Shown here in pieces: positions 33,572 to 50,773 of a DNA stretch of 64,000 bases; the first letter of the stretch is position 1, and the number at the start of each line of letters is the position of its first letter. Location of the stretch: contig NZ_JWLL01000003.1 of the NCBI RefSeq assembly GCF_000814025.1, positions 330,334 through 394,333 on the forward strand, written 5' to 3'. The notes under the pieces are model-generated. The model had not been told where the DNA came from and did no database searches. It saw only the letters and a list, made by a program, of their open reading frames with translations. The DNA comes from Tateyamaria sp. ANG-S1 (lineage in GTDB: Bacteria > Pseudomonadota > Alphaproteobacteria > Rhodobacterales > Rhodobacteraceae). The translations under genes and the position numbers were made by a program.

Positions 33572-33701
33572 TCTCTTTCCTTTGCAAATTCGCACTGATC
33601 GCCGTCGCATTGGGGATCCGCGCGCGTCTGCGCACTGTCCCCGCGGGGACAACAGACCTGTTCGTATGTTGGTGGATTAGGGAAGCGCTGTTTTGCGCGC
33701 G

Positions 33702-33715
33702 TTGATCTGGATCAA
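33702..33715. promoter_or_regulatory. FNR-type box and promoter of ccoNOQP
   Basis: TTGATCTGGATCAA is identical to the ccoG box. Spacing of 41.5 bases would put the transcript start near 33667. TAATCC at 33679-33674 on the minus strand is then correctly placed as a -10 element, leaving a leader of about 95 bases. Confidence 0.9.
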
Positions 33716-33726
33716 GATACGAAAAT

Positions 33727-34134: not shown

Positions 34135-34194
34135 AACGCAGCCCTCCTTCGACTCTTCGGTCAAAAGGGATAGGCCGCAACGCGCAGAGCCGCG

Positions 34195-34208
34195 TTGATG
34201 TGGATCAA
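34195..34208. promoter_or_regulatory. FNR-type box and promoter of uspA
   Basis: TTGATGTGGATCAA is a full palindrome. A start at 41.5 bases from its centre falls near 34160, and TATCCC at 34172-34167 on the minus strand sits where the -10 element should be, 33-38 bases before the uspA ATG. Confidence 0.85.
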
Positions 34209-34220
34209 GAGAGGGTCAGG

Positions 34221-34961: not shown

Positions 34962-34972
34962 CCCGCCCTCCG

Positions 34973-34986
34973 TTGATCTGGGTCAA
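34973..34986. promoter_or_regulatory. FNR-type box between fnrL and hemN
   Basis: TTGATCTGGGTCAA has one mismatch to the palindrome. Its centre is 41.5 bases from the A of the hemN ATG, the classical activating distance if hemN is transcribed from its start codon. It lies only twelve bases before fnrL, where binding would block and not activate. Confidence 0.8.
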
Positions 34987-35020
34987 TGCGCATAACAAGC
35001 GCTTCACTCACTTTTGCCCC

Positions 35021-36373
35021 ATGAAACACATTTCCGAACTCCGCAAACATGGTCTTTTCGACGCACGGGTACCGCGTTTCACGAGCTACCCGCCAGCAAA
35101 TTGGTTTAGCGAAAAGGTCGACGCGGAATGCGTCCATACCTGGCAGGCCACAGCGCCCAAGGATGCAAAGATTTCGCTCTATGTCCACATTCCCTTTTGC
35201 CGCAGATTATGCTGGTTCTGCGCCTGCCGCACCCAAGGCACGCGCAGCGACGCCCCGCTTGCCCCATATGTCGAGCGTGTGCTGACCGAAGCCCAGCAAA
35301 TGCGCGACGGCTTTTCAAACGGGGTGAACACCAAGCGCCTTCATTTAGGCGGAGGAACGCCGACGATCCTGCCCGCACCCGTTCTCGATCACCTTTTGAC
35401 CGGGCTGAATGACATCTGGGACTTCGGCGCGCTCGATGAATTCTCGGTCGAGGTTGATCCGACGGATGTTGGCCCCAACCGGCTGGCGACACTCAAGGCG
35501 CACGGCCTGTCGCGTGCCAGCCTCGGCATTCAGGACTTCGATCCACAAGTGCAGCAGGCCATCGGGCGCGAACAATCACGCGACCTGACTGCAAACGTCG
35601 TAGATCAGTTGCGCGCATTGGATGTGAACGCACTGAATTTCGACCTGCTCTACGGCCTGCCCTATCAGACCGAGCAGACGCTCAGCGCAACGCTTGACGC
35701 CGCACTGGGGATGGAGCCGGGGCGCATCGCGCTTTTCGGCTACGCCCATGTGCCTTGGATGTCGAAACGCCAATCGCTGATCCCCAGCGACGCCCTGCCC
35801 GCGCCCGAGAAACGCCTTGCACTGTTTGAACTTGCGCGCAGGACGCTACTGGGCCGCGGTTACGTCCAGATCGGCATCGACCACTTCGCGCGACCCGACG
35901 ACGCGCTGGCGCAAGCGTTCTTCAACAAGCGCCTCACGCGGTCGTTCCAAGGGTATACCGACGACAGCGCGCCTTACCTTGTGGGGCTCGGCGCTTCGGC
36001 GATCTCGACCTATCCGCAGGGCTTTGCGCAGAATATCCCCGTGACAGGCAAATACGCGGCCCAGGTCGAAGCCGACCAGCCCGCCATGTGGCGCGGCTAC
36101 GTGCTGACAGAGGCCGATCACATGCGCGCTGACATCGTCGAACAGCTCATGTGTTATCACGCGGCAACTCTGTCCCTGTCGCAACGGGCTGATCAGATGA
36201 TCCTGTCCAGCATTCTGCACATCGTCGAAAGGTTCGGCGATGCAGTGTCGTGGGACGGCAAAACACTGACAATCGCCCGCTGGGCACACCCACTGGTGCG
36301 GATGATCGCGGGCACGCTGGCCACAGAACAGACCGAGCAGGCCGACAAGAGGACCTACAGCGCGGCGATCTAG
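35021..36373 (+). CDS. hemN: oxygen-independent coproporphyrinogen III oxidase
   Basis: The 450-residue radical-SAM enzyme oxidises coproporphyrinogen III to protoporphyrinogen IX without oxygen. The cluster cysteines are Cys60, 64 and 67 in FCRRLCWFCACRT, preceded by YVHIPF. The GGGTP motif (LHLGGGTPT) and the HemN-specific RTSYP-like RFTSYPPANWF start are present. It is divergent from fnrL across an FNR-type box, and no ribosome site precedes the ATG, which fits a leaderless message. Its stop overlaps that of iolG on the other strand. Confidence 0.95.
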   Translation: MKHISELRKHGLFDARVPRFTSYPPANWFSEKVDAECVHTWQATAPKDAKISLYVHIPFCRRLCWFCACRTQGTRSDAPLAPYVERVLTEAQQMRDGFSNGVNTKRLHLGGGTPTILPAPVLDHLLTGLNDIWDFGALDEFSVEVDPTDVGPNRLATLKAHGLSRASLGIQDFDPQVQQAIGREQSRDLTANVVDQLRALDVNALNFDLLYGLPYQTEQTLSATLDAALGMEPGRIALFGYAHVPWMSKRQSLIPSDALPAPEKRLALFELARRTLLGRGYVQIGIDHFARPDDALAQAFFNKRLTRSFQGYTDDSAPYLVGLGASAISTYPQGFAQNIPVTGKYAAQVEADQPAMWRGYVLTEADHMRADIVEQLMCYHAATLSLSQRADQMILSSILHIVERFGDAVSWDGKTLTIARWAHPLVRMIAGTLATEQTEQADKRTYSAAI

Positions 36374-37365
36374 TCGAATGTCAGCGCTTGCGGTGTGCCA
36401 ACCTCGAACGAGGCTTGGGCCGCATCCGCCATCACCTGCGCTTTGTAGCCATCGATCCCGCTGGGGTTCGGCGGCGTGCCTGCAGTCAGCACCTCGACAA
36501 AATGCGTCATCTCGGCGGTGTAAGCGGCGGCGTAGCGTTCCAGGAAAAATGGCTCGGTCGGGGCGCGGGTGAAGCCGCTGGCATCCGACACCTCAACCGT
36601 GGATGTCAGCACGTTATCGGCGCGCAGCATCCCGCTTTCCCCATGAACTTCAATGCGTTGGTCATAGCCGTAGGTCGCGCGACGCGAGTTGGAAATCTGG
36701 CAGAGCTTGCCGGATGCCGTGCGCAAGCTGACCATCGCCGTGTCCACATCACCCGCCTCGCCAATCGCTGAGTCCACGAGACAGGAGCCGTGCGCAAAGA
36801 TCTCGACCGGGTCTTCGCCCAGCAGAAACCGCGCCATATCCAGATCGTGGATCATCATGTCCCGGAACAGCCCACCCGAGGTTTTGATATAGCCGATGGG
36901 CGGTGGCGACGGATCGCGCGACAGGATCGTCACCATCTCGACCTGCCCGATGCGGCCCGCGTCGATCTGGGTTTTTAGCGTGCGAAAGTTTGGATCAAAG
37001 CGTCGGTTGAAGGCGATGAAGAACGGCACGTCATGCTGCTGCACCACCGCGAGGCAGTCGCGAATACGACCTGCATTCAGGTCGATGGGCTTTTCGCAGA
37101 AGATAGCCTTGCCCGCCCGCGCCGCACCATGGATTAAGTCGTAGTGGGTGGTCGTTGGTGTGCCGATCACTACCGCGTCGATGTCCGAGGCGGCGAGGAT
37201 ATCCTCGACCTCCATGACCTTCGCGCCTGTCCGTTTCGCCAGCGCCTCTGCTGCCTCCGGCATGGCGTCGGCCACCGCGGCAACCTGCGCGCCCTCCAGC
37301 CCCATCAGGCTGCGGGCATGGACCTGTCCGATCCGGCCACAACCCAGAAGTGCGATGTTGATCAT
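36370..37365 (-). CDS. iolG: myo-inositol 2-dehydrogenase
   Basis: The 331-residue Gfo/Idh/MocA-family enzyme oxidises myo-inositol to 2-keto-myo-inositol with NAD+. The Rossmann motif GCGRIGQVHA is at residues 8-17, the catalytic lysine in CEKPID near 95, and the C-terminal domain has the inositol-type GGLFRDMMIHDLDMARFLLG segment, quoted by its parts GGLFRDMM and HDLDMARF, containing the Asp/His pair of the active site. It is last in the iolD-to-iolG unit on the minus strand, five bases after the aldolase gene. Confidence 0.88.
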   Translation of the reverse strand: MINIALLGCGRIGQVHARSLMGLEGAQVAAVADAMPEAAEALAKRTGAKVMEVEDILAASDIDAVVIGTPTTTHYDLIHGAARAGKAIFCEKPIDLNAGRIRDCLAVVQQHDVPFFIAFNRRFDPNFRTLKTQIDAGRIGQVEMVTILSRDPSPPPIGYIKTSGGLFRDMMIHDLDMARFLLGEDPVEIFAHGSCLVDSAIGEAGDVDTAMVSLRTASGKLCQISNSRRATYGYDQRIEVHGESGMLRADNVLTSTVEVSDASGFTRAPTEPFFLERYAAAYTAEMTHFVEVLTAGTPPNPSGIDGYKAQVMADAAQASFEVGTPQALTFD

Positions 37366-37369: not shown

Positions 37370-38197
37370 TTAGCCTTTCATTGTGCGCAGAACGGTGCGC
37401 GTCGCCGCGACGAGCGGATCATGCGTGTCTTTCAAAATCTGCACCCGGTCAAATCGGTACGGGTCGCTGCTCACCGCGTCCCGCAAAGCCTGACCAAAGG
37501 CCTGCCGTAGCTCGGTCCCGATGTTGAACTTGCATATACTGGTTTGGGTGGCGAGGGCGCGGCGCTGCGCAGCAGGTACGCCAGACCCGCCGTGGATCAC
37601 CAGCGGGACGTCCGTAACGGCCTGGATCGCCGCGATACGCTCTTCGTCCAGACCTCCGGACTGATCGGTCTGCAGGTGCACGTTGCCGACCGAGATCGCC
37701 ATCGCGTCCACGCCCGTCTCCGCCGCGAATTGCGCAGCCTCCGCAGGGTCGGTCCCGGCAGAGGCTTCGCCGTTGTCGTAGCCCACGAACCCAATCTCGC
37801 CCTCGCATGAGATGCCTGCCGCATGCGCCACATCGACGATGGCCTTGGTCTCGGCAATGTTCTCGGCCAGTGGTTTGCGCGAGCCGTCGAACATGAGCGA
37901 GGTAAAGCCGCTGTCGAGCGCTTCTTTGCATTCATCAAACGTGTAGCCATGGTCCAGATGAGCCACGACGGGGACTGAAGCCCCTTCAGCCAAATGCCGA
38001 AACATCTTGCCCAGGATGGGCAGCGGCGTGTGCGCCCGACAGGACGGACCGGCTTGTAAGATAACCGGGCACCCTTCAGCCTCTGCCGCGGCCACGTAGG
38101 CACGCATATCTTCCCAGCCCAGCGTGACCAGACCCGCCACGGCATAGCCTTGGGCCTTGGCCGGACCCAGCACTTCTGCGAGTGTTGCCAGGGTCAT
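37370..38197 (-). CDS. class II fructose-bisphosphate-aldolase family protein (IolJ-like)
   Basis: The 275-residue enzyme has the class II aldolase centre: catalytic Asp82 and zinc-ligand His83 in AHLDHG, GEIGFVG, the ligand in VGNVHL, and IHGGSG, with KFNIGTE after it. In an iol operon the natural role is to split 2-deoxy-5-keto-gluconate-6-phosphate, the product of IolC, into dihydroxyacetone phosphate and malonic semialdehyde. Tagatose- or fructose-bisphosphate activity cannot be ruled out from sequence alone. The ATG overlaps the iolB stop (ATGA). Confidence 0.82.
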   Translation of the reverse strand: MTLATLAEVLGPAKAQGYAVAGLVTLGWEDMRAYVAAAEAEGCPVILQAGPSCRAHTPLPILGKMFRHLAEGASVPVVAHLDHGYTFDECKEALDSGFTSLMFDGSRKPLAENIAETKAIVDVAHAAGISCEGEIGFVGYDNGEASAGTDPAEAAQFAAETGVDAMAISVGNVHLQTDQSGGLDEERIAAIQAVTDVPLVIHGGSGVPAAQRRALATQTSICKFNIGTELRQAFGQALRDAVSSDPYRFDRVQILKDTHDPLVAATRTVLRTMKG

Positions 38198-39048
38198 TTA
38201 AACTTCGCGATCATGTCCTTGATGCCAGGGATCGTTTCGATCTGGTAGGCATGGGTGGGCTGGAAGTACTGCACCAGACTGCGCTGGCTGAGCCCCCCGA
38301 GGATGGTGAAGTAGTACATCTCATACCCCGGCAGCACCGCGCAGGGATGGTAGCCGTTGTCGAGGCAGATCGTGGAGCCATCGACGATGTGATACGCATC
38401 CCCCGCTTTCCCGTCTTCGCGCTGCAGCATCTGGACGCCAGAGCCGTGGTTGGGGCGAAAGCGGAAGTTGTAGGTCTCATCATGGCGGGTTTCGATGATC
38501 TCGCCGCCTTCGGACCGGTCCGTGTCATGCTTGTGGCTGGGGAAACCGGACCACCCGCCCTGCCCGACCGTGAAGAGTTCGGACACAAGCAGACGGCCCA
38601 CCTTGTCGTGGTACTTGGTACCAAGGATGTGCTTGATCTTGCGGTGGGTTTTCGTGTCGTCCGAGCCGTATTGGATGAGGTCCAATTCGTTACTGCGGAC
38701 GGCGAAGGCGTCGAGCACCTTGTCGTATTTGGCGCCGGCCACGAAAATCTCGGCCTCGTCCGAGGTGCAGACCATCTCGGCCTTCGCGGCGGTAGGGACA
38801 TAGACGCCCTCTGGCTCACCATCCCAGACGTCTACACCACGCCCGCCGATGGCGTCGGCCTTGAACCCCTCAGCATTGACGTCAACGGTGCCCGTCGCGG
38901 GGACGATGCACGTCTCATAGCCGGGCACGGCGTATTCGAACGCCTCGCCCTTTTTCAGCTTCACGATATTGAAGTAGTTGAGCGGGACAGTCGGATCGTC
39001 CGCGTCCACGATGGGTTTGTTCTGGTTGTCATAAGGCGCGATGTGCAT
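38194..39048 (-). CDS. iolB: 5-deoxy-glucuronate isomerase
   Basis: The 284-residue bicupin protein converts 5-deoxy-glucuronate to 2-deoxy-5-keto-gluconate. The metal-site region reads WSGFPSHKHDTD, with the His-x-His pattern followed by Glu, and the later YYFTILGG and HPCAVLPGYEMYY segments complete the family pattern. Length fits the usual 260-290. It lies fourteen bases after iolC and overlaps the aldolase gene. Confidence 0.9.
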   Translation of the reverse strand: MHIAPYDNQNKPIVDADDPTVPLNYFNIVKLKKGEAFEYAVPGYETCIVPATGTVDVNAEGFKADAIGGRGVDVWDGEPEGVYVPTAAKAEMVCTSDEAEIFVAGAKYDKVLDAFAVRSNELDLIQYGSDDTKTHRKIKHILGTKYHDKVGRLLVSELFTVGQGGWSGFPSHKHDTDRSEGGEIIETRHDETYNFRFRPNHGSGVQMLQREDGKAGDAYHIVDGSTICLDNGYHPCAVLPGYEMYYFTILGGLSQRSLVQYFQPTHAYQIETIPGIKDMIAKFK

Positions 39049-39062: not shown

Positions 39063-40043
39063 TTACGGTGTTGTCGGGCCGGGATGATTGGTCAGGAAAT
39101 CATCCAGCAGATCGGGTGTGGGCATGGCAGGCGCGCAGCCTGGTTGCGAGACGGTGATGGACGCGCAAGCCGACCCGCGCAGGATGGCCGTTTTCAGCTC
39201 GTGTCCGTCGGCAATAGAGGTCATCAGCCCCGCCATGAATGCATCGCCAGCCCCGTTGGGTTTGACAGCGGTGACAGGGTAGATCCCGGTGGCAATCTCT
39301 TCGCCCCCCGCATAGGTCACTGCGCCCTTTTCACCCATTTTGTAGACGACGATCTCGGCGGTCGTCTCGGACAGGGCGCGGGCCTTGGTCTGCCCTTTTT
39401 CCATGCCACCGGCCATGAAGCCGAATTCTTCGTCGTTGCCGACGATCATGTCAGATGCCTCTGCCGCGCGGCTCAAAACATCGGCGGCAACCGCGGCCGA
39501 CGGCCAGGAATAAGGGCGATAATCCACGTCGAAGATAATGGGCAGACCCGCAGCCTTGGCCAGTTCGAACGCTCGGAAGGTGGCGGAGCGCGAGGGTTCT
39601 GCGGCAAAGACGGTGCCAGCCGTGATCAGCGCACCGTATTTGGCGTAGTCCACAGCCTCCACGTCTTCGACCGCCATCTGAAAGTCGGCAGCGCCGTTGC
39701 GGTAGATGACGTTCCTGTGCCCTTCGAGCACGCTTTCGTAGAAGGCAAGCGAGTTACGGTATTCGCCCCCCACACGGCTCACATGGTCGGTGTTCACGCC
39801 GTAGTGCTGCAATCGGTTCACACAGTAGCTGCCGACCGAGTCGTCGCTGACGGATGTCACCAATGCGGCCTTGCCACCGAGCTTACAAATGCCCGCTCCG
39901 ATGTTCGCCGCCGACCCACCAAGGTCCACGGTCAAGCGTTCCACATCCTCGGCCCGCACGCCGACATCGGTGAAAAAGTCGATACCTGCGCGCCCCACAA
40001 TGACAAAGTCGTTGGCCTTGATCCCGTCCAGAAGCGCGCTCAT
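39063..40043 (-). CDS. iolC: 5-dehydro-2-deoxygluconokinase
   Basis: The 326-residue PfkB/ribokinase-family enzyme phosphorylates 2-deoxy-5-keto-gluconate. It shows GRAGIDFF and LGGSAANIGAGICKLG at the N-terminus, FDVDYRPYSW in the middle, and the catalytic PNGAGDAFMAGL with its aspartate near residue 270. This is a stand-alone kinase and not the fused IolC-DUF2090 form of some proteobacteria. The ATG overlaps the stop of the dioxygenase gene (ATGA). Confidence 0.9.
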   Translation of the reverse strand: MSALLDGIKANDFVIVGRAGIDFFTDVGVRAEDVERLTVDLGGSAANIGAGICKLGGKAALVTSVSDDSVGSYCVNRLQHYGVNTDHVSRVGGEYRNSLAFYESVLEGHRNVIYRNGAADFQMAVEDVEAVDYAKYGALITAGTVFAAEPSRSATFRAFELAKAAGLPIIFDVDYRPYSWPSAAVAADVLSRAAEASDMIVGNDEEFGFMAGGMEKGQTKARALSETTAEIVVYKMGEKGAVTYAGGEEIATGIYPVTAVKPNGAGDAFMAGLMTSIADGHELKTAILRGSACASITVSQPGCAPAMPTPDLLDDFLTNHPGPTTP

Positions 40044-40885
40044 GTGATGCCCTCAGCGTTCACGGCATCCGCCTCGTCCAGGATTTCAGGGTATTTGTAG
40101 TTGAAGCCCAAGAGCTGACGCATCTTGGGGCTGGCCGCATCAAGAAAAGATTGAGGCAGCGCGCCCGGCATATCCTCCAGCGGTTTGACGAATTTCGGGA
40201 TGTAGTTGATCAGCACTGCGTTGCGGTCGTGGTCGGCGGTGTTGGGCATCGCACAATGCCAAGCAGCTCCGAAGAAAATGATCGTGTCGCCGGGCGCGCC
40301 CGTCATTCGCGCGCAGTTGGCGTAGAAGTGGTCGTGATCCTGTGCCGTCGGATAGCGCATGTCCTTCTGCGTGCCCGGCAGATAGGCCGTCGCCCCGCTT
40401 TCTTCAGTGAACGGGTCAAGCGCAATGGTCACTTGCGCGTTCATCGGGAAGCTGGCGTTCAGGCCCATGGGATGCGTGTCGGGCTGGTGAAAGTCCCAAT
40501 AGGGAAAGTCGATATGCGGCTCCTGTCCTGGCCCGCCGGGCAGGATACGGTTGGCGGCGATGGAGCCCATGATGAACTCTGATCCCAGCCAGCGGCGCAG
40601 CACGGCCATGATGACCGGGTGCGTCGCCATGTCCGAGAATACCGCCCCCTTGGCCAGCAGGTTCCACACCCGGCGCTGCAGGTTGGCACGGCCATCTTCC
40701 ATAGCTGCGCCTTGGAAATGCGTGACCTTGTCAGCTTCGCCATCCGAATGCGCCATGATGCGGGTGCGGGCATCAGCGATCTGGTCGGCCGAAAACAGGC
40801 CGGTGATCCGCACCGCTCCGGGGCCGTTCAAAAGCTCATCGCAGATCGCGACAGGATCGGCGGTGTCAGCTGTAAAGGTCTTCAT
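40040..40885 (-). CDS. phytanoyl-CoA dioxygenase (PhyH) family protein in the iol operon
   Basis: The 281-residue protein has the Fe(II)/2-oxoglutarate facial triad of the PhyH family: His124-x-Asp126 in EPHIDFPYW, the distal histidine at 210 in AAWHCAMPN, and the 2-oxoglutarate arginine at 221. A hydroxylation reaction is therefore likely, on an unknown substrate. It sits between iolD and iolC and overlaps both (TGATG and ATGA), so it is an integral part of the operon although no step of the known inositol pathway needs it. A methylated or otherwise substituted inositol could be the target. Confidence 0.8.
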   Translation of the reverse strand: MKTFTADTADPVAICDELLNGPGAVRITGLFSADQIADARTRIMAHSDGEADKVTHFQGAAMEDGRANLQRRVWNLLAKGAVFSDMATHPVIMAVLRRWLGSEFIMGSIAANRILPGGPGQEPHIDFPYWDFHQPDTHPMGLNASFPMNAQVTIALDPFTEESGATAYLPGTQKDMRYPTAQDHDHFYANCARMTGAPGDTIIFFGAAWHCAMPNTADHDRNAVLINYIPKFVKPLEDMPGALPQSFLDAASPKMRQLLGFNYKYPEILDEADAVNAEGIT

Positions 40886-42753
40886 CACACGCCCTTACGC
40901 TGCTTGGGCCGGGTCGCTTCCCAGTCTGTATGGGCGGCCGCAACCTTTTCGTTGTCGGTTACATGGGGCGTGCCCACTTCCCACCATGTGTGACCTTCGG
41001 TGGTCCAGCCCTCGTATGCGTCGACCTTCATGCAGATGACATAGGTCTTGTCACTGGCCTTGGCCCGCTTGAACGCCTCGCCCAGTTCAGCAGGATTTTC
41101 CACAGTTTCGGCTGTAGCTCCCATGCTGGCGGCATGAGCTTCGAAATCCACGGCAAATGCCTCGGGTATGGTCGGCGCATCGCTCAGCAGGTTGTTGAAG
41201 CTTTCGTTGCCGGTGTTGTTCTGCAACTTGTTGATGACGGCGAAACCGCCGTTGTCGAGAACCAGAACGATCATCTTCTTCTGCGACAGAACAGAGGAGT
41301 AGATGTCCGAATTCATCAGCAGGTACGACCCGTCACCGACAAAGGTGATCACATCCTGATCCGGCTCGCGTTCGGCCTGCGCGATGCGCGCGCCCCAGGC
41401 GCCCGCGATCTCGTAGCCCATGCAGGAAAATCCGAACTCGACATCGACCGTACCGATATCCAGCGTGCGCCAATTGGCCGTGACTTCGGCGGGCAGGCCT
41501 CCTGCGGCGGCCACCACGCGGTCGCGCGGATCGCAAGCTGCATTCACGACGCCAATGGCTTGCGCATAAGAGTTGGGACGGTTGCCGTGAGCCACGTTGT
41601 CGGCGACATAGGCCACCCATTTGGCGCGTTCTTCCTTGGCAAAGTCGCACCAACTTGACGGCGCCGTATATCCCGTCAGCGCAGCGTCCAGCGCGTCCAG
41701 CCCCAACTTGGCATCACCCACCACGGGCAGCGACCGATGCTTGCCTGCATCATGGCGGCCCACGTTCAAGCCGATGATCTGTGCGTCTTTGGCAAAAGCC
41801 GTCCACGACCCGGTGGTGAAGTCCTGCAGGCGGCACCCGACCGACAGGATGACGTCCGCCTTTTCGGCAACCGCATTGGCGCTGTCCGATCCGGTCACGC
41901 CAATGGGGCCGCAATTCAGCGGATGCGTGTCCACCATGTTGGCCCGGCCAGCGATGGTTTCGACCACTGGAATGCCCGTCGCCTCGGCAAAGGTGGTCAA
42001 CTCCTCGACCGCGCGGGAATACTGCACACCGCCGCCTGCGATGATCATGGGCCGTTTTGCAGCTTTCAACGCGGCGGCGGCATCAGCCACCTCTGCCGCG
42101 TCCGGGAACTGACGGCGGATGCGATGAAGCTTCTTCTCGAACATCTCCACCGGATAGTCATAGGCCCAGCCCTGCACGTCCTGCGGCAGACCAAGGAAAG
42201 CTGGGCCGGAATCGGCAGGGTCCAGCATGGTCGCAATTGCATTGGGCAGAGACTGGATGATCTGCGCGGGATGCGTGATGCGGTCCCAATAGCGCGTCAC
42301 CGCCTTGAAGGCGTCATTCACACCAAAAGTCGGATCGCCAAAATGCTCAAGCTGTTGCAGCACCGGGTCCGGCAGGCGGGTGATGAACGTATCACCGCAC
42401 AGCATCAGCATGGGCAACCGGTTGGCATGGGCCAAGGCCGAGGCCGTCAACAGGTTCGCGGTGCCTGGCCCCGCACTTGCCGTGCAGAACATGAACCGCT
42501 GGCGCAGCCAAGTCTTGGCGTAGGCCGCTGCGGCGAATCCCATACTTTGTTCGTTCTGACCGCGATACAGCGGTAGCTCGGTTTTGTGGTCGTAAAGCGC
42601 TTCGCCGAGGCAGGTCACATTGCCATGGCCAAAGATGCCAAATCCGCCGCCACACAGGCGCCACTCCTGCCCGTCAATCTCAATGTACTGTGCCGCAAGA
42701 TAGCGGATGATCGCCTGCGCTGTCGTCAGACGCACCGTGTCGCTGCCCGCCAT
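40885..42753 (-). CDS. iolD: 3D-(3,5/4)-trihydroxycyclohexane-1,2-dione hydrolase
   Basis: The 622-residue thiamine-diphosphate enzyme hydrolytically opens the ring of the diketone made by IolE, giving 5-deoxy-glucuronate. The family plan is clear: an N-terminal domain with the glutamate-containing YRGQNEQSMGFAAAAYAK (conserved RGxNEQ), a central domain, and a C-terminal ThDP site with GDGSYLLMNSD. The ATG at 42753 is chosen for the GGGAGG upstream. It is first in the minus-strand iol unit, divergent from a dehydrogenase across a region carrying a LacI-type palindrome. Confidence 0.93.
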   Translation of the reverse strand: MAGSDTVRLTTAQAIIRYLAAQYIEIDGQEWRLCGGGFGIFGHGNVTCLGEALYDHKTELPLYRGQNEQSMGFAAAAYAKTWLRQRFMFCTASAGPGTANLLTASALAHANRLPMLMLCGDTFITRLPDPVLQQLEHFGDPTFGVNDAFKAVTRYWDRITHPAQIIQSLPNAIATMLDPADSGPAFLGLPQDVQGWAYDYPVEMFEKKLHRIRRQFPDAAEVADAAAALKAAKRPMIIAGGGVQYSRAVEELTTFAEATGIPVVETIAGRANMVDTHPLNCGPIGVTGSDSANAVAEKADVILSVGCRLQDFTTGSWTAFAKDAQIIGLNVGRHDAGKHRSLPVVGDAKLGLDALDAALTGYTAPSSWCDFAKEERAKWVAYVADNVAHGNRPNSYAQAIGVVNAACDPRDRVVAAAGGLPAEVTANWRTLDIGTVDVEFGFSCMGYEIAGAWGARIAQAEREPDQDVITFVGDGSYLLMNSDIYSSVLSQKKMIVLVLDNGGFAVINKLQNNTGNESFNNLLSDAPTIPEAFAVDFEAHAASMGATAETVENPAELGEAFKRAKASDKTYVICMKVDAYEGWTTEGHTWWEVGTPHVTDNEKVAAAHTDWEATRPKQRKGV

Positions 42754-42832
42754 TTCAATCCTCCCATGGCTGCGCGATTTCAATTATCGACGATTCTGTA
42801 TTGACCCGTCCGTTGCAATGACGATACCGGTA

Positions 42833-42848
42833 TTGCAACCGGTTGCAA
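42833..42848. promoter_or_regulatory. LacI-type operator in the divergent iol promoter
   Basis: TTGCAACCGGTTGCAA is a perfect 16-base palindrome with the central CG of LacI-family operators. It ends 23 bases before the dehydrogenase ATG at 42872 and 80 bases from iolD. Nearly the same site lies at 50899 before the importer genes. Confidence 0.8.
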
Positions 42849-42871
42849 ACACTTTTTGGGGAGGAGCCCGG

Positions 42872-43975
42872 ATGGCCGAGATCGGGATAGGTATCGTTGG
42901 CGGTGGCTATATGGGCAAGGCCCATTCGGTTGCGTTTGGCGCAGTGGCCGCAGTGTTCGACACGGCGTTGCGCCCACGGCTGGAAATGATCTGTGCGACG
43001 TCTAAGGCGTCTGCAGAACGGTACCGCGCCGCCTATGGTTTCGCACGCGCAACCGACGATTGGCGCAAGCTGGTAGATGACCCGAAGGTGGAGGCCATCG
43101 TCATCGCCTCTCCTCAGGACACCCACCGCGACATTGCACTTGCGGCCTTTGCCGCAGGCAAGCCGGTGCTCTGCGAAAAGCCGCTGGCTGAAACACCCGA
43201 TCATGCCCGCGAGATGGTGGCAGCGGCCAAGGCCGCGGGTGTCGCCAACATGGTCGGCTTCAACTATGCCAAGACCCCTGCCACCCAATACGCCCGCAAG
43301 CTGTTGGCCGAGGGGCGCATTGGGCAGGTCACGTCATTCCGCGGCGAGATGACCGAGGATTTCTTTGCAGATCCCGACGATCCGGGCACCTGGCGCGCCC
43401 AAGGCGATGCCAATGGCTGCATGGGCGATCTGGCCCCCCACCCCATCAACTGCGCTCAGGCCCTCATGGGCCCGATCGAGGCGCTTTTTGCCCGTGTTGA
43501 AACAGTACATCCCGTGCGCGGCGGGGTCGAGGTCACGAACGATGACCAAGCCTATCTGACCCTGCGCTTTGCGTCCGGTATCAACGGCAGTCTGTTCATC
43601 AGCCGCGTCGCGACGGGGCGCAAGATGGGCTATGCCTACGACATCTACGGCACCGGCGGTGCGATCCGCTTTGATGGCGAAGACCAGAACACCCTCTGGC
43701 TCTACACCGCCGAGGGGCCGGAGGCCGAGCGCGGGTTCCGCAAGATCCTGACCGGACCCGCCCATCCCGACTACCTGCCCTTCTGTCAGGGCCCCGGTCA
43801 TGGCACCGGCTATCAGGACCAGATCATCATAGAGGCCAAGGACTTCCTCACCGCGATCCATACGGGGCAGCCCGTCTGGCCAACGTTCGAGGAAGGCTTG
43901 CGCGTCAATCAAGTTGTGGCTGCGGCCCTTGCATCGTCTCGGGCGGAGACGTGGGTCAACGTGGCGGATTTCTGA
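42872..43975 (+). CDS. Gfo/Idh/MocA-family oxidoreductase (inositol-type)
   Basis: The 367-residue NAD(P)-dependent dehydrogenase has VGGGYMGKAH at residues 9-18 and CEKPLAE near residue 100. Its C-terminal domain contains NGCMGDLAPHPINCAQALMG, quoted by its parts GCMGDLAPH and NCAQALMG, with the active-site Asp/His pair. GGGGAGGA precedes the ATG at 42872. It is first in a divergent unit with iolE and another dehydrogenase; oxidation of scyllo- or chiro-inositol, or of an inositol ether, would suit the setting. The frame is open upstream, but the start is well supported. Confidence 0.82.
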   Translation: MAEIGIGIVGGGYMGKAHSVAFGAVAAVFDTALRPRLEMICATSKASAERYRAAYGFARATDDWRKLVDDPKVEAIVIASPQDTHRDIALAAFAAGKPVLCEKPLAETPDHAREMVAAAKAAGVANMVGFNYAKTPATQYARKLLAEGRIGQVTSFRGEMTEDFFADPDDPGTWRAQGDANGCMGDLAPHPINCAQALMGPIEALFARVETVHPVRGGVEVTNDDQAYLTLRFASGINGSLFISRVATGRKMGYAYDIYGTGGAIRFDGEDQNTLWLYTAEGPEAERGFRKILTGPAHPDYLPFCQGPGHGTGYQDQIIIEAKDFLTAIHTGQPVWPTFEEGLRVNQVVAAALASSRAETWVNVADF

Positions 43976-43987: not shown

Positions 43988-44884
43988 ATGATCAAAATCG
44001 GCAATGCCCCCTGTTCGTGGGGCGTGGAGTTCGCGGACGACCCGCGCAATCCATCGTGGCGCAAGGTGCTGCAGGAGAACGCGGATGCAGGCTACACCGG
44101 GATCGAGTTGGGACCGGTTGGCTTCATGCCCGAAGACCCCGGCAAACTGGGCGCCGCGCTTGAAGAGTTCGGGCAGGACCTCGTAGGCGGCGTCGTGTTC
44201 CGCCCCTTCCACGACCCGGATCAGTGGGACGACGTGATGGACGGCGCAGTGCGCACCTGCAAGGCGCTGAAAGCACACGGGGCGGAGCATCTGGTGCTGA
44301 TCGACTCCATCTCTGAACGGCGCGCACCTACCGCCGGTCGGGCCGATGAGGCCGAGCAGATGGACAAGTCCGAATGGACCGCCTTTCGCGACCGCATCGC
44401 AACCGTCGCCAAGATCGGAGCCGAGGAATACGGGCTGACAGTCGGCATGCACGCCCACGCAGCAGGGTTCATCGACTTCGAGCCGGAATTGGAGCGCTTG
44501 CTGGACGAGGTGGACGCGAGCATCCTGAAAATCTGCTTTGACACCGGGCATCACTCCTACGCGGGTTTCGATCCGGTGGCCTTTATGAAGAAGCATATTG
44601 GCCGCATCAGCTACATGCATTTCAAGGACATCGATCCCAAAGTGAAAGCCGACGTGATCGCGAACCGAACCGGGTTCTACGACGCCTGCGGACAGGGGAT
44701 CTTTTGCAATCTGGGCGACGGTGATGTGGACTTTCCTGCCGTTCGTCAGGTGCTGCTGGACAACGGGTTCGACGGCTGGTGTACGGTCGAACAGGATTGC
44801 GACCCGGCGGGCGACACCTCGCCCATCGACGACGCGAAACTGAACCGCGCTTATCTGCAATCCATCGGATTTGAAGGAGCCTGA
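43988..44884 (+). CDS. iolE: inosose dehydratase
   Basis: The 298-residue TIM-barrel protein dehydrates 2-keto-myo-inositol to the diketone used by IolD. It starts with the characteristic IGNAPCSWGVEF, followed by ADAGYTGIELGPVG. Metal-binding positions are visible in HAHAAGFIDFEPE, CFDTGHHSYAGFDP and MHFKDID, with the last acidic ligand in CTVEQD. It follows the dehydrogenase by twelve bases and precedes another by two. Confidence 0.92.
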   Translation: MIKIGNAPCSWGVEFADDPRNPSWRKVLQENADAGYTGIELGPVGFMPEDPGKLGAALEEFGQDLVGGVVFRPFHDPDQWDDVMDGAVRTCKALKAHGAEHLVLIDSISERRAPTAGRADEAEQMDKSEWTAFRDRIATVAKIGAEEYGLTVGMHAHAAGFIDFEPELERLLDEVDASILKICFDTGHHSYAGFDPVAFMKKHIGRISYMHFKDIDPKVKADVIANRTGFYDACGQGIFCNLGDGDVDFPAVRQVLLDNGFDGWCTVEQDCDPAGDTSPIDDAKLNRAYLQSIGFEGA

Positions 44885-44886
44885 GC

Positions 44887-46041
44887 ATGGCAAAGCTACA
44901 ATGGGGCATGATTGGCGGCGGTGAAGGCAGTCAGATCGGACCGGCTCACCGTTTGGGCGCAGGCTTGGATGGGCTGTTTGAGTTTTCCGCAGGCGCACTC
45001 GACCACCGACCCGAGGAAGGACGTGACTATGGTCAGCGGCTGGGCCTTGGTGACCGGGCCTATGGGTCGTGGCAGGAGATGCTGGAGGGCGAGCAAAAGC
45101 GCGACGACAAAATCGACCTGGTCACAGTCGCCACACCAAACGCCACACACTATGAAATCACCAAAGCCTACCTCGAAGGCGGCTTTCACGTGCTCTGCGA
45201 AAAGCCGATGACCATGACGGTCGAGGAAGGCGAAGAAATCGTCGAGATCGCACGCAAAACCGGCAACATCTGCGCCGTGAACTATGGCTACACCGGCTAC
45301 TCGCTGGTCCGGCATATGCGCGCGATGGTGGCGCGCGGTGACATCGGGAAGGTGCGGCTCGTGGTGGCAGAGTTTGCGCACGGCCACCATGCCGACGCCA
45401 CAGATGCCGACAATCCGCGTGTCCGCTGGCGCTACGATCCGGCTCAGGCGGGGGTGTCAGCCCAGTTTGCGGATTGCGGGATTCACGCGCTGCACATGGC
45501 GTCTTTTGTGACGGGCCAAGAGGTTGAGAAGCTGAGCGCTGATACCGTGTCCTGCATCGATGTGCGGACCTTGGAAGACGACGCGATGGTCAACTTCCGC
45601 ACGGATGGCGGCGCCGTTGGGCGGCTCTGGACCTCGTCCGTGGCCATCGGGCGGCAGCACGGGTTGGGGATTCAGGTCTTTGGCGAAACCGGCGGGTTGC
45701 GATGGTCGCAGGAGCAGCCGAACCAGCTGTATTACATGCCGCTGAACGACCGCCTGCAAGTCATCGAACGGGGCGAGGCGAATTTGTCGCCCGAAGCCGA
45801 CCGGACGACGCGCGTCACTATCGGACATGCCGAAGGGATGCCGCTGGCCTTTGCAAACATCTACACAGATCTGGCCGAGGCGATCCGGGCGCGCAAGGAG
45901 GGGCGGTTGATGGATCCGGCGGCAAACCTGTATCCGCGAGCCGAGGATGGGTTGCGGTCCATGGCAGCGGTCTTTGCGGTGGCTGAAAGCGGCAAGCAGG
46001 ACGGCGCTTGGCTGGATGCGCGGCCACCGATGTTTCGGTAG
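44887..46041 (+). CDS. Gfo/Idh/MocA-family oxidoreductase (second of the unit)
   Basis: The 384-residue protein starts LQWGMIGGGEGSQIGPAHR, with the Rossmann glycines and an insert typical of the longer family members, and has LCEKPMTM near residue 110 with the catalytic lysine. The C-terminal part has AQFADCGIHALHMASFVTG with Asp and His at the expected distance. It differs clearly from both other inositol dehydrogenases of the locus, so a distinct isomer or keto-sugar is likely. It ends the plus-strand unit; the acetyltransferase beyond is on the other strand. Confidence 0.8.
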   Translation: MAKLQWGMIGGGEGSQIGPAHRLGAGLDGLFEFSAGALDHRPEEGRDYGQRLGLGDRAYGSWQEMLEGEQKRDDKIDLVTVATPNATHYEITKAYLEGGFHVLCEKPMTMTVEEGEEIVEIARKTGNICAVNYGYTGYSLVRHMRAMVARGDIGKVRLVVAEFAHGHHADATDADNPRVRWRYDPAQAGVSAQFADCGIHALHMASFVTGQEVEKLSADTVSCIDVRTLEDDAMVNFRTDGGAVGRLWTSSVAIGRQHGLGIQVFGETGGLRWSQEQPNQLYYMPLNDRLQVIERGEANLSPEADRTTRVTIGHAEGMPLAFANIYTDLAEAIRARKEGRLMDPAANLYPRAEDGLRSMAAVFAVAESGKQDGAWLDARPPMFR

Positions 46042-46654: not shown

Positions 46655-47656
46655 TCAGCCGGGCACGGGGCGCAGCGTGCCACGCTCGACCACGTGGCAG
46701 TCAAAACTGAGCGACTGGGCAATCGTCTCTTCCCCGTCGAGCATCGCCTCGACCAGATCGACGGACGTGCGCACGATATCGTCGATGGGATTGTGAATAG
46801 TGGTCAGGTCAATCAGCTCCCACGCGGCCATTTCCATGTTGTTGAGACCAAGGATGCCGACGTCATCCGGCACCGACAGGCCCGCATCCTTGATAGCGGA
46901 CAAGGCGCCGATGGACAGGACGTCATCGCCACAAAAATATGCCTCGGCCGGGCCCATGGCGAGCAAGCGCGCCATCTCCTCCCGCCCGGCGTTGAAGGAA
47001 TATGCCTTGGCATAGCTGACAGACAGGGCAACGTCGGGATGCCGGCTGAGTTCCTCGACAAAGCCAGTGTGGCGGTCGCGGGTCGAGGTGGCGCTGAGCG
47101 GACCGGCGAGAAAGCCGACACGCCGGTAGCCGCGTTTGATGAGCTCGCGCGCGGCGATACGGCCCGCTTCGATGTTGTTAATGCCCAGCACGTTGATCTT
47201 GGGGGCGTCGGTAAGGCGACCAAAGGAATGGACGACGCGCATGCCCGCCTCGTGAAAGCTCTCGGCAAAGCTGACTGGGAGGGTAGATGACGCTACGATG
47301 ACCGCATCGACCGAGTATTGCCGGAGAAGGCGCACGGAGTTTGAGGGGTCGGTTTCGTCGGAAAGGTTCACCAGCAAGGGGCGCAAACCGCGTTTTTGCA
47401 ACTCGCGCGTGACGAGGTCGAACACCTCAAGAAAGATCGGGTTGTGGAAGTTGTTGGAAATGACTCCCACCAGCTTGGTCCGCCCAGTGGTGAGTGAGGA
47501 CGCGAGCGCATTGGGGCTGTAGCCTAACTCAGCGGCTGCTTTTTCGACCTTCTCCCGTGTCTTGCCGCTGATCGACGCGCCGGGCGTGAAACAGCGCGAC
47601 ACGGCGGAGCGCGATACCCCTGCCCGTTCGGCCACATCTTTGAGGGTTACGGCCAC
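46655..47656 (-). CDS. LacI-family regulator, probable repressor of the inositol regulon
   Basis: The 333-residue protein starts with a LacI helix-turn-helix (TLKDVAERAGVSRSAVSRCF) and hinge, followed by a periplasmic-binding-protein-like effector domain (LVGVISNNFHNPIF to VGILGLNNMEMAAWEL). The start is GTG at 47656. It is downstream of the importer genes on the same strand, three bases after a small ORF. Location makes it the best candidate to bind the palindromes at 42833 and 50899, with an inositol derivative as effector; this is inference. Other bacteria often use RpiR- or DeoR-type IolR proteins for this job. Confidence 0.85.
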   Translation of the reverse strand: MAVTLKDVAERAGVSRSAVSRCFTPGASISGKTREKVEKAAAELGYSPNALASSLTTGRTKLVGVISNNFHNPIFLEVFDLVTRELQKRGLRPLLVNLSDETDPSNSVRLLRQYSVDAVIVASSTLPVSFAESFHEAGMRVVHSFGRLTDAPKINVLGINNIEAGRIAARELIKRGYRRVGFLAGPLSATSTRDRHTGFVEELSRHPDVALSVSYAKAYSFNAGREEMARLLAMGPAEAYFCGDDVLSIGALSAIKDAGLSVPDDVGILGLNNMEMAAWELIDLTTIHNPIDDIVRTSVDLVEAMLDGEETIAQSLSFDCHVVERGTLRPVPG

Positions 47657-47866: not shown

Positions 47867-48643
47867 TCAGGCCGCGTCCTCGTACCCTTCCTGCGTCTTG
47901 GCACCAGTGATGTAGGCCACCACGTCCTGCCCATCGGTATCTTCCTTGCGAAGGTTCGCACAGATGCGCCCCCGTCGGAAAACCACGATCCGGTCCACAA
48001 GGTCAAACACCTGCCGCATGTTGTGGCTAACGAGGATCAGAGGTTCGCCCTGTTCCTTGAGCGTGCGGATGATGTTTTCGACCTGTGCGGTTTCTTGAAC
48101 GCCCAGCGCCGCAGTCGGTTCATCCATGATAGTCAGGCGCGAGTGGAAGGTCGCCGTGCGCGCAATGGCCACGCATTGCCGCTGACCGCCCGACATGTTG
48201 CGGATGGTGTTGCGGATGTTGGGGATTTTCACGGCCGTTTTTTCCAGCCCGTCCATAGTCGCCTGCCGCATTGCCTTGTAGTCCAGCAGGCGAAAGGGGC
48301 CGAGCCAATCGAACTTGGTCTTTTCGCGGCCAAGAAACAGGTTGTCCGGGACGTCCAGGTCATCAGCCAAAGCCAGCGTCTGGAATACGGTTTCGATTCC
48401 AGCCTCACGTGCGTCCAGAGGACCCGTGAAATTCACCGGCTCGCCGTAGAACATGATGTCACCGCGCGTGCGCTGTTCGACCCCGGTGATCTGGCGGACA
48501 AAGGTGGATTTGCCCGCGCCGTTGTCGCCCATGATTGCCACGTGCTCACCCTTTTTCAGAGTGAAGTTGGCGTCGTTGAGGGCATGCACACCGCCATAGT
48601 GTTTGGTCAGCCCGCGCGTCTCGAGTACGATGTCGTCGCTCAT
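47867..48643 (-). CDS. sugar/inositol ABC transporter ATPase, single-domain form
   Basis: The 258-residue protein has one complete nucleotide-binding domain: Walker A GDNGAGKST, Q-loop, signature MSGGQRQ and Walker B LTIMDEPTAAL. Ribose-type importers generally use a fused double ATPase of about 500 residues; this half-size form is like FrcA of the fructose importer FrcBCA. GGGGGAGA precedes the ATG at 48643. It follows the permease by fourteen bases and energises it. Confidence 0.88.
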   Translation of the reverse strand: MSDDIVLETRGLTKHYGGVHALNDANFTLKKGEHVAIMGDNGAGKSTFVRQITGVEQRTRGDIMFYGEPVNFTGPLDAREAGIETVFQTLALADDLDVPDNLFLGREKTKFDWLGPFRLLDYKAMRQATMDGLEKTAVKIPNIRNTIRNMSGGQRQCVAIARTATFHSRLTIMDEPTAALGVQETAQVENIIRTLKEQGEPLILVSHNMRQVFDLVDRIVVFRRGRICANLRKEDTDGQDVVAYITGAKTQEGYEDAA

Positions 48644-48657
48644 TGGTATCTCCCCCG

Positions 48658-49740
48658 TCAACTTCGCAAGGCCGCGCGTTCTTGCCGGACCTTGTCCAGC
48701 ACCACAGCGCCGATGATGATCGCGCCCATCGCCATCAATTGGTAGAAGGCGTCGAGTTTGATGTATGTGAACCCGGATTGGATGACGCCGAAGACCATGG
48801 CACCCAGCACCGTCCCGATGATCGAGCCGCGTCCGCCGGTCAGGCTGACGCCGCCGATGACGGCCATGGCGATGGCGTAGAGCTCGTAGAAGATGCCCAT
48901 GCCGGATTGCGCCGTGAGGTTCTTGGAACTCAACACGATGGCGGCAAAGGCAGCGAGCATCGACGCGATCATGTAGACCAGCACCTTGTGCCGTTTGACG
49001 TTGATGCCGGACATGCGCGCTGCATCCTCGTTCGAGCCAATGGCATAGGTGTGTTTGCCGTAGACCGTGTATTTGAGGATGAAGTGAAAGAGGATCGCAA
49101 GAGCGAGGAAGAGGTAGACGGGCATCATACCCTTGCCGATCAACGCATAGGTTTCGGTGGGGAACGACACCGGCTGCCCCCGCGTCCATGCTTGCGCGAT
49201 GCCCCGGCAGATCAGGAACATGCCCAGCGTCGCAATGAAGGGCGGGATCTTGGTATAGGCGATAAGACTGCCGTTGATGGCTCCGATCAGGGCGCCGAAA
49301 CTGAGACCGACGAGCAGCGGTATGATCACGGGCAAGTCGAACGCCCAAGGGCCGAACACCGCCTTCGGGTTGGGGCCACCGTTAACGAGTTCGGTTTGCG
49401 CAAAGGACATGACGATCATGGCCGTCGCCCCGACAAGGGGGCCGGAACTGAGATCGATGCCGCCCGAGATGATGACTTGCGTCACGCCCAGCGCGATGAT
49501 GCCAATGATCGCAACCTGCAGGATGATGATGCGCAGACGTGCTTCGTTGAAGATGCTGTCGAACCGGTCGCGCGTGTCGAAGAGAAAGCTCTGCCCGTTC
49601 ATGTAAGGCAGAAGCTGCCCTGCCGCCTCGAAGGCGAAGATGATCAGGATCAGCGCGAAGAAGATGTTGAGCTCGTTTGGCCAGGCCCGTCGCTTGCTGT
49701 CAAATGTCAGCCCGCCCGTGCCATGCGATGCGTCGGCCAT
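48658..49740 (-). CDS. sugar/inositol ABC transporter permease
   Basis: The 360-residue protein belongs to the branched-chain/ribose-type permease family with about ten membrane helices. The family loop GSNEDAARMSGINVKRHK, which contacts the ATPase, and the segments VIISGGIDLSSGPLVG and SLTGGRGSIIGTVLGA are clear. Length equals that of FrcC-type permeases. It lies about 95 bases after the binding-protein gene, behind a hairpin, and just before the ATPase gene. Confidence 0.9.
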   Translation of the reverse strand: MADASHGTGGLTFDSKRRAWPNELNIFFALILIIFAFEAAGQLLPYMNGQSFLFDTRDRFDSIFNEARLRIIILQVAIIGIIALGVTQVIISGGIDLSSGPLVGATAMIVMSFAQTELVNGGPNPKAVFGPWAFDLPVIIPLLVGLSFGALIGAINGSLIAYTKIPPFIATLGMFLICRGIAQAWTRGQPVSFPTETYALIGKGMMPVYLFLALAILFHFILKYTVYGKHTYAIGSNEDAARMSGINVKRHKVLVYMIASMLAAFAAIVLSSKNLTAQSGMGIFYELYAIAMAVIGGVSLTGGRGSIIGTVLGAMVFGVIQSGFTYIKLDAFYQLMAMGAIIIGAVVLDKVRQERAALRS

Positions 49741-49796
49741 GGATGCCTCCCGTTTGAGCGGCCGAAAGTGCCGCTTCTGTCATCAGGGTGTCGGGT

Positions 49797-49824
49797 GGTC
49801 GGGCTGCATCACCGCAGCCCGACC
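49797..49824 (-). terminator. strong hairpin between binding-protein and permease genes
   Basis: GGTCGGGCTGC (49797-49807) and GCAGCCCGACC (49814-49824) form a perfect 11-base stem with a six-base loop, eleven bases after the binding-protein stop. No uridine run follows, so it probably protects the upstream mRNA end and gives more binding protein than permease. Confidence 0.7.
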
Positions 49825-49834
49825 GATCATAGAG

Positions 49835-50773
49835 TTACTGGAGGAACTCGGACACATTTTCCGGCGTGACCAGCTTGAATGGGATGAAGACGGTCTTGTC
49901 GACATCCTCTCCATTCGCGAGCTTGATCGCCGTGTCGATGGAGCCTGCGCCCTGACCTGCGAGGTCTTGGAAAACTGTCACATCCATGTCACCGGCCTGC
50001 ATCGATACCAGCGCGTCGGGCGTAGCATCCACGCCGCCCACCTGAACGTCATCCATCGAAATGCCTGCAGACTTCATGGCCTGGATCGCGCCGATGGCCA
50101 TTTCGTCATTGTTGGCAAAGACGGCATCGAAGGGCTCACCAGAGGAAATCCAGTTGGTCATGAGGTCTTGCGCCTGGTCACGGGACCAGTTGGCCGTCTG
50201 GCTGTCGATCAGGGTGATGAAGTTGCACATATCCATGCCAAGCACATCCTCGACATCCTTGGAACGCTGCACCGCCGCCTGGTTCGACAACTGGCCCATC
50301 AGCATGTAGGCGGTTGCCCCACCCGACTTGCCCGCAGCGCGCAGGTTCTTGCAGATCTCAAATGCTTTCAGCGTGCCGCTTTCGATCTCGTTCGATGCCA
50401 CGAACGCCTGCCCTTCGGGCAGCGTGTCCATGTTGATCGGCTGGCGGTTCACATAGACCATTGGCACACCGGCAGAGGCGGCGGCCTGGCTCATCGCTTC
50501 GGTCGCGTTGGTGTCGACCGCATTCACGATGATCGCGTCCACACCCGATGCGATGAAGTTGTTGATCTGGTCAAGCTGGCGCGCCACGTCGTCTTGCGCG
50601 TCTTCCATGATCAGTTGAACACCATCCAGCGTTTCAACGTGCTCGGTCATGCCGTTGCGCATGATGGTCAGGCCGTTGTCGTCAAACCGGGCCACGGACA
50701 CACCGATGGTTTCAGCCATGGCCGTACCACCCATCAGCATGGCAAGCGCGCCCACTGTCACAAAATTCTTCAT
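49835..50773 (-). CDS. MocB-like inositol/rhizopine-type ABC binding protein
   Basis: The 312-residue periplasmic protein starts with a signal peptide (FVTVGALAMLMGGTAMA) and has a two-lobed ribose-binding-protein fold. Segments such as VSVARFDDNGLTIMRNGM, IASGVDAIIVNAVDTNAT and FDAVFANNDEMAIGAIQAMK resemble, from memory, the rhizopine/inositol-binding MocB and IbpA proteins more than ribose binders. With the iol genes next door and a shared operator, myo-inositol or a derivative is the likely ligand. It is first in the importer operon. Confidence 0.83.
   Translation of the reverse strand: MKNFVTVGALAMLMGGTAMAETIGVSVARFDDNGLTIMRNGMTEHVETLDGVQLIMEDAQDDVARQLDQINNFIASGVDAIIVNAVDTNATEAMSQAAASAGVPMVYVNRQPINMDTLPEGQAFVASNEIESGTLKAFEICKNLRAAGKSGGATAYMLMGQLSNQAAVQRSKDVEDVLGMDMCNFITLIDSQTANWSRDQAQDLMTNWISSGEPFDAVFANNDEMAIGAIQAMKSAGISMDDVQVGGVDATPDALVSMQAGDMDVTVFQDLAGQGAGSIDTAIKLANGEDVDKTVFIPFKLVTPENVSEFLQ

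Follow-up and report, generated by a model that had tools for sequence, protein, structure and literature searches.

A PhyH-type dioxygenase gene embedded in inositol operons of Rhodobacteraceae as a candidate optional cyclitol-modifying enzyme

We investigated a gene, here called A1, that lies between iolD and iolC in the inositol (iol) operon of Tateyamaria sp. ANG-S1 (Rhodobacteraceae), within a stretch of 64,000 nucleotides (assembly GCF_000814025.1, contig NZ_JWLL01000003.1, positions 330,334 to 394,333) referred to below as the window. A1 is tied to inositol catabolism by its operon position and, judging by sequence and predicted fold, is an enzyme of the Fe(II)/2-oxoglutarate (2OG) type. 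We tentatively propose that A1 is an optional upstream dioxygenase that turns a modified cyclitol into a substrate of the iol pathway, most likely by O-demethylation. The two parts of this proposal differ in strength: the substrate is quite probably a cyclitol, whereas O-demethylation is put forward with much less certainty.

The original prediction, made from the sequence of the window, had placed a gene at 40040-40885 without stating a strand. This gene is real and lies on the minus strand, where it is intact and encodes a PhyH-type protein of 281 residues, with its ATG at 40885 and its stop codon TGA at 40042-40040; the plus-strand reading of the same interval is interrupted by a stop codon. 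As had been predicted, codons overlap on both sides of the gene. Indeed, the stop codon of iolD (TGA, 40887-40885) and the ATG of A1 (40885-40883) have 1 base in common, and the stop codon of A1 and the ATG of iolC (40043-40041) form a 4-base ATGA overlap. A1 matched the Pfam family PhyH (PF05721) with 80.8 bits (cut-off 22, E value 2e-22). The full Fe/2OG site claimed earlier (His124, Asp126, His210 and Arg221) was numbered correctly, and all four residues are invariant in the 30 sequences that we aligned, namely, the window's own and 29 relatives at 45-94% identity. The motifs QEPHxDxPYWD and WHCAMPN are likewise invariant in this alignment at most positions. An AlphaFold2 model of A1 (predicted local distance difference test score 76.6, predicted template modelling score 0.81) was assigned the double-stranded beta-helix fold, and its best 50 Foldseek matches among solved structures are all oxygenases of the Fe/2OG dioxygenase kind, with the best E value for SptF (6e-17) and a Z score of 25.9 over 245 residues for FtmOx1. 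Fungal dioxygenases of the SptF, TlxJ and FtmOx1 type are thus among the closest solved folds; they are about 17-23% identical to A1, and andiconin, berkeleyone, fumitremorgin and similar compounds appear in their entry titles. For DhiD, the nearest solved sequence, we traced no publication in the open-licence literature. The closest relatives of A1 are from Tateyamaria, and two more PhyH genes in the window's genome are far more distant from it by profile comparison.

A public genome collection, described as covering 84,980 species, was scanned with six short peptide patterns, which reach close relatives only, yielding 42 A1 loci found by similarity to the protein. The order iolD-A1-iolC is kept in 34 of these 42 (L044-L050, L052-L076, L079 and L080), and the link is thus not due to chance. 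The A1 gene of L079 is split over two frames; it was left unjoined and counted as A1 positive. At four further loci (L081, L083, L084 and L085), A1 comes next after a divergent IolD-family gene (38-39% identical); the L081 protein, the only one of these scored, reached 760.8 bits, above the IolD cut-off of 715, and closer iolD genes are present elsewhere in the genomes of L081 and L084. The remaining four A1 genes lie elsewhere (L051, L077, L078 and L082). When 385 genomes of the class were searched with a profile (E value ≤1e-40), A1 was detected in four, the window's own included, and two loci, L204 and L205, were added. The latter, from another alphaproteobacterial family, carries A1 at 48% identity in a differently built iol operon, in the order iolC-aldolase fusion, iolD, iolB, A1, iolE and a third PhyH-type gene, followed by iolC, iolB and iolJ of the window's type. 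IolC, IolB and IolE of the differently built operon exceed their NCBIfam cut-offs. The third PhyH-type dioxygenase gene, which shares this operon with A1 (L205:11588-12478, 133 bits), belongs neither to A1 nor to A2, a second subfamily described below. At L204, A1 stands beside genes for a short-chain dehydrogenase/reductase (SDR) and an HpcH-type aldolase (both named by eye), with no iol gene in 12 kb. A search of plasmids returned five records and no intact close relative of A1; three were 31-33% identical, and the matches in Caballeronia sp. SBC1 and SBC2 covered 41% of the query, in two pieces. The SBC1 plasmid remnant (L192:15001-15338) lies beside MocD/E/F-like genes that are 93-96% identical to those of L077.

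Within the family, A1 is optional. An iolD orthologous to that of the window (E value ≤1e-250) was present in 95 of 394 family genomes, and A1 (at least 69% identity) was present in nine of the 394, all among those 95. At the 95 other places with such an iolD, eight have A1 between iolD and iolC, 86 have iolC following iolD at no more than 250 bases, and at one the stretch ends at iolD. A1, present in nine of the 95 genomes, is dispensable for the core pathway, as would be expected if it served to widen the substrate range. A1 as an essential step of the core pathway was rejected, since 86 of the 95 lack A1 and 38 of these 86 lack A2 as well. The conservation survey that had been suggested, with absence from nearly all related iol operons as the adverse outcome, gave a divided answer: the 86 genomes without A1 come close to such an absence, and 48 of them carry the distantly related A2 somewhere in the genome. 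Such patchiness, with a second enzyme standing in, is expected of an accessory enzyme that widens substrate range, as originally proposed.

We then compared the histories of these genes. On a quick iolD tree of 125 rows, 40 of them A1 positive, presence of A1 changes 19 times, at least 14 of these on branches with a support of ≥95 in the Shimodaira-Hasegawa-like approximate likelihood ratio test, used in place of a bootstrap. The rows are 126 of 132 loci plus the window, less two duplicates; L051, L058, L077, L078, L178 and L180, which have no full iolD, were left out. Pairwise distances of A1 followed those of iolD (r = 0.66; 40 loci, L074 and L079 left out) less well than distances of iolC did (r = 0.79), hinting at some separate transfer of A1. 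At a Tateyamaria locus, L051, A1 (L051:10001-10840) is found alone beside hemN-, FNR- and cco-like genes (read by eye), which are also neighbours of the window's iol operon, and a complete A1-less iol operon is present elsewhere in the same genome (L193). The solitary gene is under purifying selection, with a ratio of nonsynonymous to synonymous substitution rates (dN/dS) of 0.07-0.20 against eight relatives. Thus, A1 is accessory to inositol breakdown, since it is kept without the operon in L051 and is absent from most operons.

The second subfamily, A2, was first seen in L170, 3' of iolG, as a PhyH-type protein of 379 residues scoring 99.9 bits. It is present in 89 of the 394 family genomes. 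Across the family, at least 30 of 93 A2 places (29 genomes) lie within 20 kb of iolD, and 12 of the 93, among the matches listed, lie 980-1,250 bases from it. Twenty A2 regions were fetched and read; in L223, A2 had been missed by open reading frame (ORF) calling. Canonical operons in L207, L209, L211 and L213 show the order iolD-iolE-A2-iolB, and the IolD, IolE and IolB proteins of L207 all score well above their cut-offs. L212 ends after iolD-iolE-A2, L210 has iolD-iolE-A2 but no iolB, and in L208 a single gene of unassigned type separates A2 from iolD. In other loci, e.g., L088, L095, L103 and L149, A2 adjoins an operon of the window's type. Similar SDR genes occur near A1 (L082 and L204) and near A2 (L095, L103, L207 and L216), and also in L097, which lacks A2. 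In L216 (3587-10811), A2 is accompanied by a sugar-type ATP-binding cassette (ABC) transporter, an SDR, a triosephosphate isomerase (TIM)-barrel gene and a dehydrogenase 82% identical to GfoB of the window; the window-type iolD of that genome is on a different contig, and the group resembles a detached upstream module.

A1 and A2 rarely occur together. In a first count over the 95 genomes, A2 was present in 0 of 9 A1-positive and in 48 of 86 A1-negative genomes (p = 0.0012, uncorrected), a difference that was not significant under tree-controlled pairs (median p 0.25). As a second look at the same question, 30 further A1-positive genomes were added; these had been found through carrying A1, so that the two groups were sampled differently, and L049, L052 and L067 were left out. 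In this enlarged count, A2 was present in 2 of 39 A1-positive genomes (the exceptions being L065 and L080) versus 48 of 86 A1-negative ones (p = 1e-8). Among 14 independent tree-controlled pairs, A2 went against A1 in 7.2 and with A1 in 0.2 (median p 0.016, range 0.002-0.375). Since they exclude each other, A1 and A2 look interchangeable, and the simplest reading is that they do the same job.

The profiles of A1 and A2 align with a probability of 98 in hhalign (E value 6e-14, 246 columns, 31% identity). At one aligned site, P-x-[ST]-Q is found in 30/30 A1 and 16/17 A2 sequences and in none of four other PhyH proteins, which have GSH instead; R-[VI]-W-N is found in 26/30, 17/17 and 0/4, respectively. 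In a small PhyH tree of 53 rows, which has very long outgroup branches, A1 is set apart by a branch of its own, and so is A2. A2 is farther from A1 than is a PhyH gene of L013 (1501-2109), which is 36% identical to A1 and carries GSH (hhalign E value 6e-14 versus 7e-24; tree path 11.3 versus 8.5). A2 as the sister of A1 is therefore not supported, and common descent of the inositol link is not established; the two subfamilies may have been recruited to it separately. No match to iol reference proteins was detected in the 3.6-kb stretch of L013, and the function of its PhyH gene could tell what A1 was recruited from.

The genes around A1 in the window are listed in Table 1.

Table 1. A1 and the neighbouring inositol-related genes of the window.
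Feature	Coordinates	Strand	Assignment
A1, PhyH-type Fe(II)/2OG dioxygenase	40040..40885	-	predicted ligands His124, Asp126, His210; predicted 2OG-binding Arg221
iolD, thiamine diphosphate-dependent ring-opening hydrolase	40885..42753	-	TIGR04377 794.5 bits, cut-off 715
iolC, 5-dehydro-2-deoxygluconokinase	39063..40043	-	TIGR04382 312.7 bits, cut-off 300
iolB-like isomerase, divergent type	38194..39048	-	KduI/IolB Pfam 234.9 bits; TIGR04378 144.6, under cut-off 205
Class II aldolase, iolJ-like	37370..38197	-	PF01116 254.8 bits
iolG, inositol 2-dehydrogenase	36370..37365	-	TIGR04380 431.9 bits, cut-off 355
GfoA, Gfo/Idh/MocA dehydrogenase, divergent arm	42872..43975	+	PF01408/PF22725
iolE-like dehydratase, divergent type	43988..44884	+	TIGR04379 176.3 bits, under cut-off 290
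GfoB, Gfo/Idh/MocA dehydrogenase	44887..46041	+	family match; 82% identical relative adjoins A2 in L216
LacI-type regulator	46655..47656	-	PF00356/PF13377
Sugar-type ABC transporter (ATPase, permease, binding protein)	47867..50773	-	ORFs named by eye only

To our knowledge, the described inositol pathway has no oxygenase. Like the known myo-inositol operon, the window carries iolG, iolE, iolD, iolB, iolC and aldolase genes; unlike the described operon, its IolB and IolE are divergent and fall under the NCBIfam cut-offs, which the canonical IolB and IolE of L207 pass easily. Genomes with both a window-type set and a canonical iolD include G086 and G347. The iol set of the window may work in parallel to the canonical one, on a different isomer or derivative of inositol. 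The start of GfoA was picked by eye inside the ORF 42707-43975; this gene adjoins iolD in most of the loci read, and the sugar-type ABC transporter adjoins iol genes in part of the relatives. The operon ends at a hemN-like gene, and the adjoining region (29557-36373) contains, by eye, genes for cbb3 oxidase subunits, a universal stress protein, an FNR-type regulator and a HemN-like protein.

In the proposed scheme, a modified cyclitol would be taken up by the cell and oxidised by A1, and the product would be broken down by IolG, GfoA and GfoB together with IolE, IolD, IolB, IolC and IolJ. In the likeliest reaction, the substrate would be a methyl-inositol or the corresponding keto compound; A1 would hydroxylate its O-methyl carbon, and the resulting hemiacetal would collapse to free inositol and formaldehyde, with 2OG being converted to succinate and CO2 during turnover. 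What had been predicted at the outset holds as far as an Fe/2OG-type, inositol-linked enzyme dispensable for the core pathway is concerned, and we infer demethylation of inositol ethers as the best fit. This reaction is the likeliest because PhyH relatives demethylate sugar methyl ethers and because one A1 adjoins MocDEF-like genes.

Concerning the first of these reasons, PHYHD1 and FJS, both of PF05721, were described as removing the 2'-O-methyl group of nucleosides as formaldehyde in the accessible portion of the report (PMC12709175). A1 resembles them in Pfam family, size and Fe/2OG ligand pattern, and the group that PHYHD1 and FJS attack is a methyl ether formed on a sugar hydroxyl. Unlike A1, which is encoded in inositol operons, they use free nucleosides as substrates; the comparison was made at the level of the family. 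Among 48 solved-structure matches to A1 at an E value of ≤10, no chain is named PHYHD1. In the same portion of that report (PMC12709175), a base-stacking Phe (Tyr in the bacterial demethylases) follows shortly after the first ligand His. A1 has an invariant Tyr129 five residues after His124; this comparison pairs human F161 with zebrafish H156 and thus mixes two numbering schemes.

Concerning the second reason, the MocDEF complex is said to demethylate 3-O-methyl-scyllo-inosamine. In Burkholderia sp. S171 (L077), a cluster of MocD-, MocE- and ferredoxin-reductase-like genes lies next to A1 in divergent orientation; these genes are presumably of the types that make up the rhizopine ferredoxin oxygenase complex. 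The MocD-like protein is of the desaturase fold, and the Rieske ferredoxin matches the MocE family with 130.1 bits, just under the cut-off of 136.15. Similar genes follow iolG at L152, in an iol operon of a genome (G120) that has neither A1 nor A2. Screening of eight A1 loci (L116, L118, L119, L123, L130, L135, L153 and L175) gave no MocD/E/F-like match within 8 kb of A1. A1 itself belongs to a different family (PF05721) and was rejected as a member of MocDEF: the MocDEF-like system combines a desaturase-fold protein, a Rieske ferredoxin and a reductase, whereas A1 would be a single protein of the 2OG type. By the title of one study, the rhizopine "ferredoxin oxygenase complex" acts together with the pathway of inositol degradation (Bahar 1998), and, in the available part of another study, the mocD promoter, ahead of mocDEF, is inducible by rhizopine (PMC10107442). 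In addition, a glutathione-type formaldehyde dehydrogenase is encoded in the host genome (606 bits, cut-off 544), which counts in favour of demethylation, if weakly, since such enzymes are common.

Several observations weigh against the role proposed for A1. Its active-site loop (residues 127-146) has low confidence in the model, and, judging from entry titles, the ligands in several of the closest solved structures are large fungal products. Orthologous iolD genes are found mostly without A1 and in many genomes without either enzyme. In the stretches read, five A1 genes (L051, L077, L078, L082 and L204) are not beside iol core genes, and neither is the Caballeronia remnant. No iolD is in view in 11 of the 20 A2 regions, several of which have A2 beside a LacI-type gene; in L214 (8482-11109), A2 directly adjoins a sulfatase-family gene. 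The closeness of L013 to A1 also counts here. The divergent arm of L081 holds a corrinoid methyltransferase pair, which could itself demethylate and leave another task to A1. This locus (L081:416-4702 and 8047-10822) combines an IolD paralog and A1 with an arm encoding a corrinoid protein and an MtaA/UroD-type methyltransferase, which suggests cobalamin chemistry acting on a methylated compound. Moreover, most of the genomic context serves deoxy-cyclitol hydroxylation and inosamine deamination equally well.

In the first of these alternatives, A1 would hydroxylate a ring carbon of a deoxy-cyclitol of the quercitol or cyclohexanetetrol type, giving a true inositol for the iol pathway. The operon link and the exclusion between A1 and A2 fit this reaction as well as they fit demethylation, and among PhyH-type enzymes, e.g., PhyH and EctD, simple hydroxylation of a C-H bond is generally the most frequent reaction. 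Haptophyte algae produce cyclohexanetetrols, and many of the genera that host A1 are, we assume, marine; our literature search on haptophyte cyclohexanetetrols gave no supporting paper. We consider this reaction unlikely, and it leaves the MocDEF-like neighbours unexplained. An equally unlikely alternative is that A1 acts on a non-cyclitol, such as 2'-O-methyl nucleosides, or removes a by-product of the iol pathway, and that it sits in the operon for co-regulation. FJS, in the accessible part of its description, is a bacterial PF05721 demethylase of free 2'-O-methyl nucleosides encoded by an 858-base ORF (PMC12709175), and the iol-free surroundings of A1 at L204 would suit such a role. Against this stand the recurrent association of A1 with iol operons of two layouts, its exclusion with an iol-linked A2 and a scan of ten window genes in which no nucleoside gene was found.

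Rather improbable is a third alternative, in which A1 would oxidatively deaminate an inosamine (e.g., scyllo-inosamine) to ammonia and an inosose for IolE, in the manner of KanJ. KanJ is the kanamycin B dioxygenase of antibiotic biosynthesis, which deaminates an aminoglycoside. It is, like A1, an Fe/2OG enzyme of related fold (6s0v, Z score 21.1 over 234 residues), and the MocDEF-like genes adjoining A1 in L077 agree with this idea. Nevertheless, KanJ is the last of the best 50 structural matches, and its sequence similarity to A1 is low (E value 2.5e-4). Rhizopines, moreover, are rare and made by a few rhizobia in legume nodules, according to the available part of one source (PMC6668481). Finally, a passenger gene unrelated to inositol use, to which the patchy distribution with its at least 14 changes on the iolD tree and the solitary A1 of L051 might point, is highly improbable and was rejected in view of the exact and recurrent position between iolD and iolC, the overlapping frames, purifying selection (dN/dS near 0.1) and the exclusion with A2.

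In the open-licence literature, we found no link of PhyH dioxygenases to iol operons and no bacterial demethylation of methyl-inositols. In the accessible part of one study, a phytanoyl-CoA dioxygenase gene and inositol genes appear in separate rows (PMC6637203), and a survey of iol genes, in the part available, mentions only a fungal inositol oxygenase (PMC9430895). The PhyH kind of enzyme is known, but open-licence publications yielded no account of such enzymes acting in cyclitol catabolism as two subfamilies that exclude each other. It is possible, if short of probable, that A1 and A2 are two interchangeable, undescribed PhyH subfamilies providing a dedicated cyclitol-modifying entry step on iol operons of different layouts, the simplest function then being that of a methyl-inositol O-demethylase in Rhodobacteraceae-type bacteria. 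If so, a single soluble protein would match the three-protein MocDEF system in function, and the large group of genes that carry no label other than "phytanoyl-CoA dioxygenase family" would gain a catabolic role. Many bacterial genes with this label have no assigned substrate, and A1 and A2 give a narrow substrate class because both are tied to inositol catabolism by position and mutual exclusion. Demethylation by these enzymes, if true, would explain how bacteria gain access to methylated inositols without a MocDEF-type complex and would link cyclitol turnover to one-carbon metabolism via formaldehyde.

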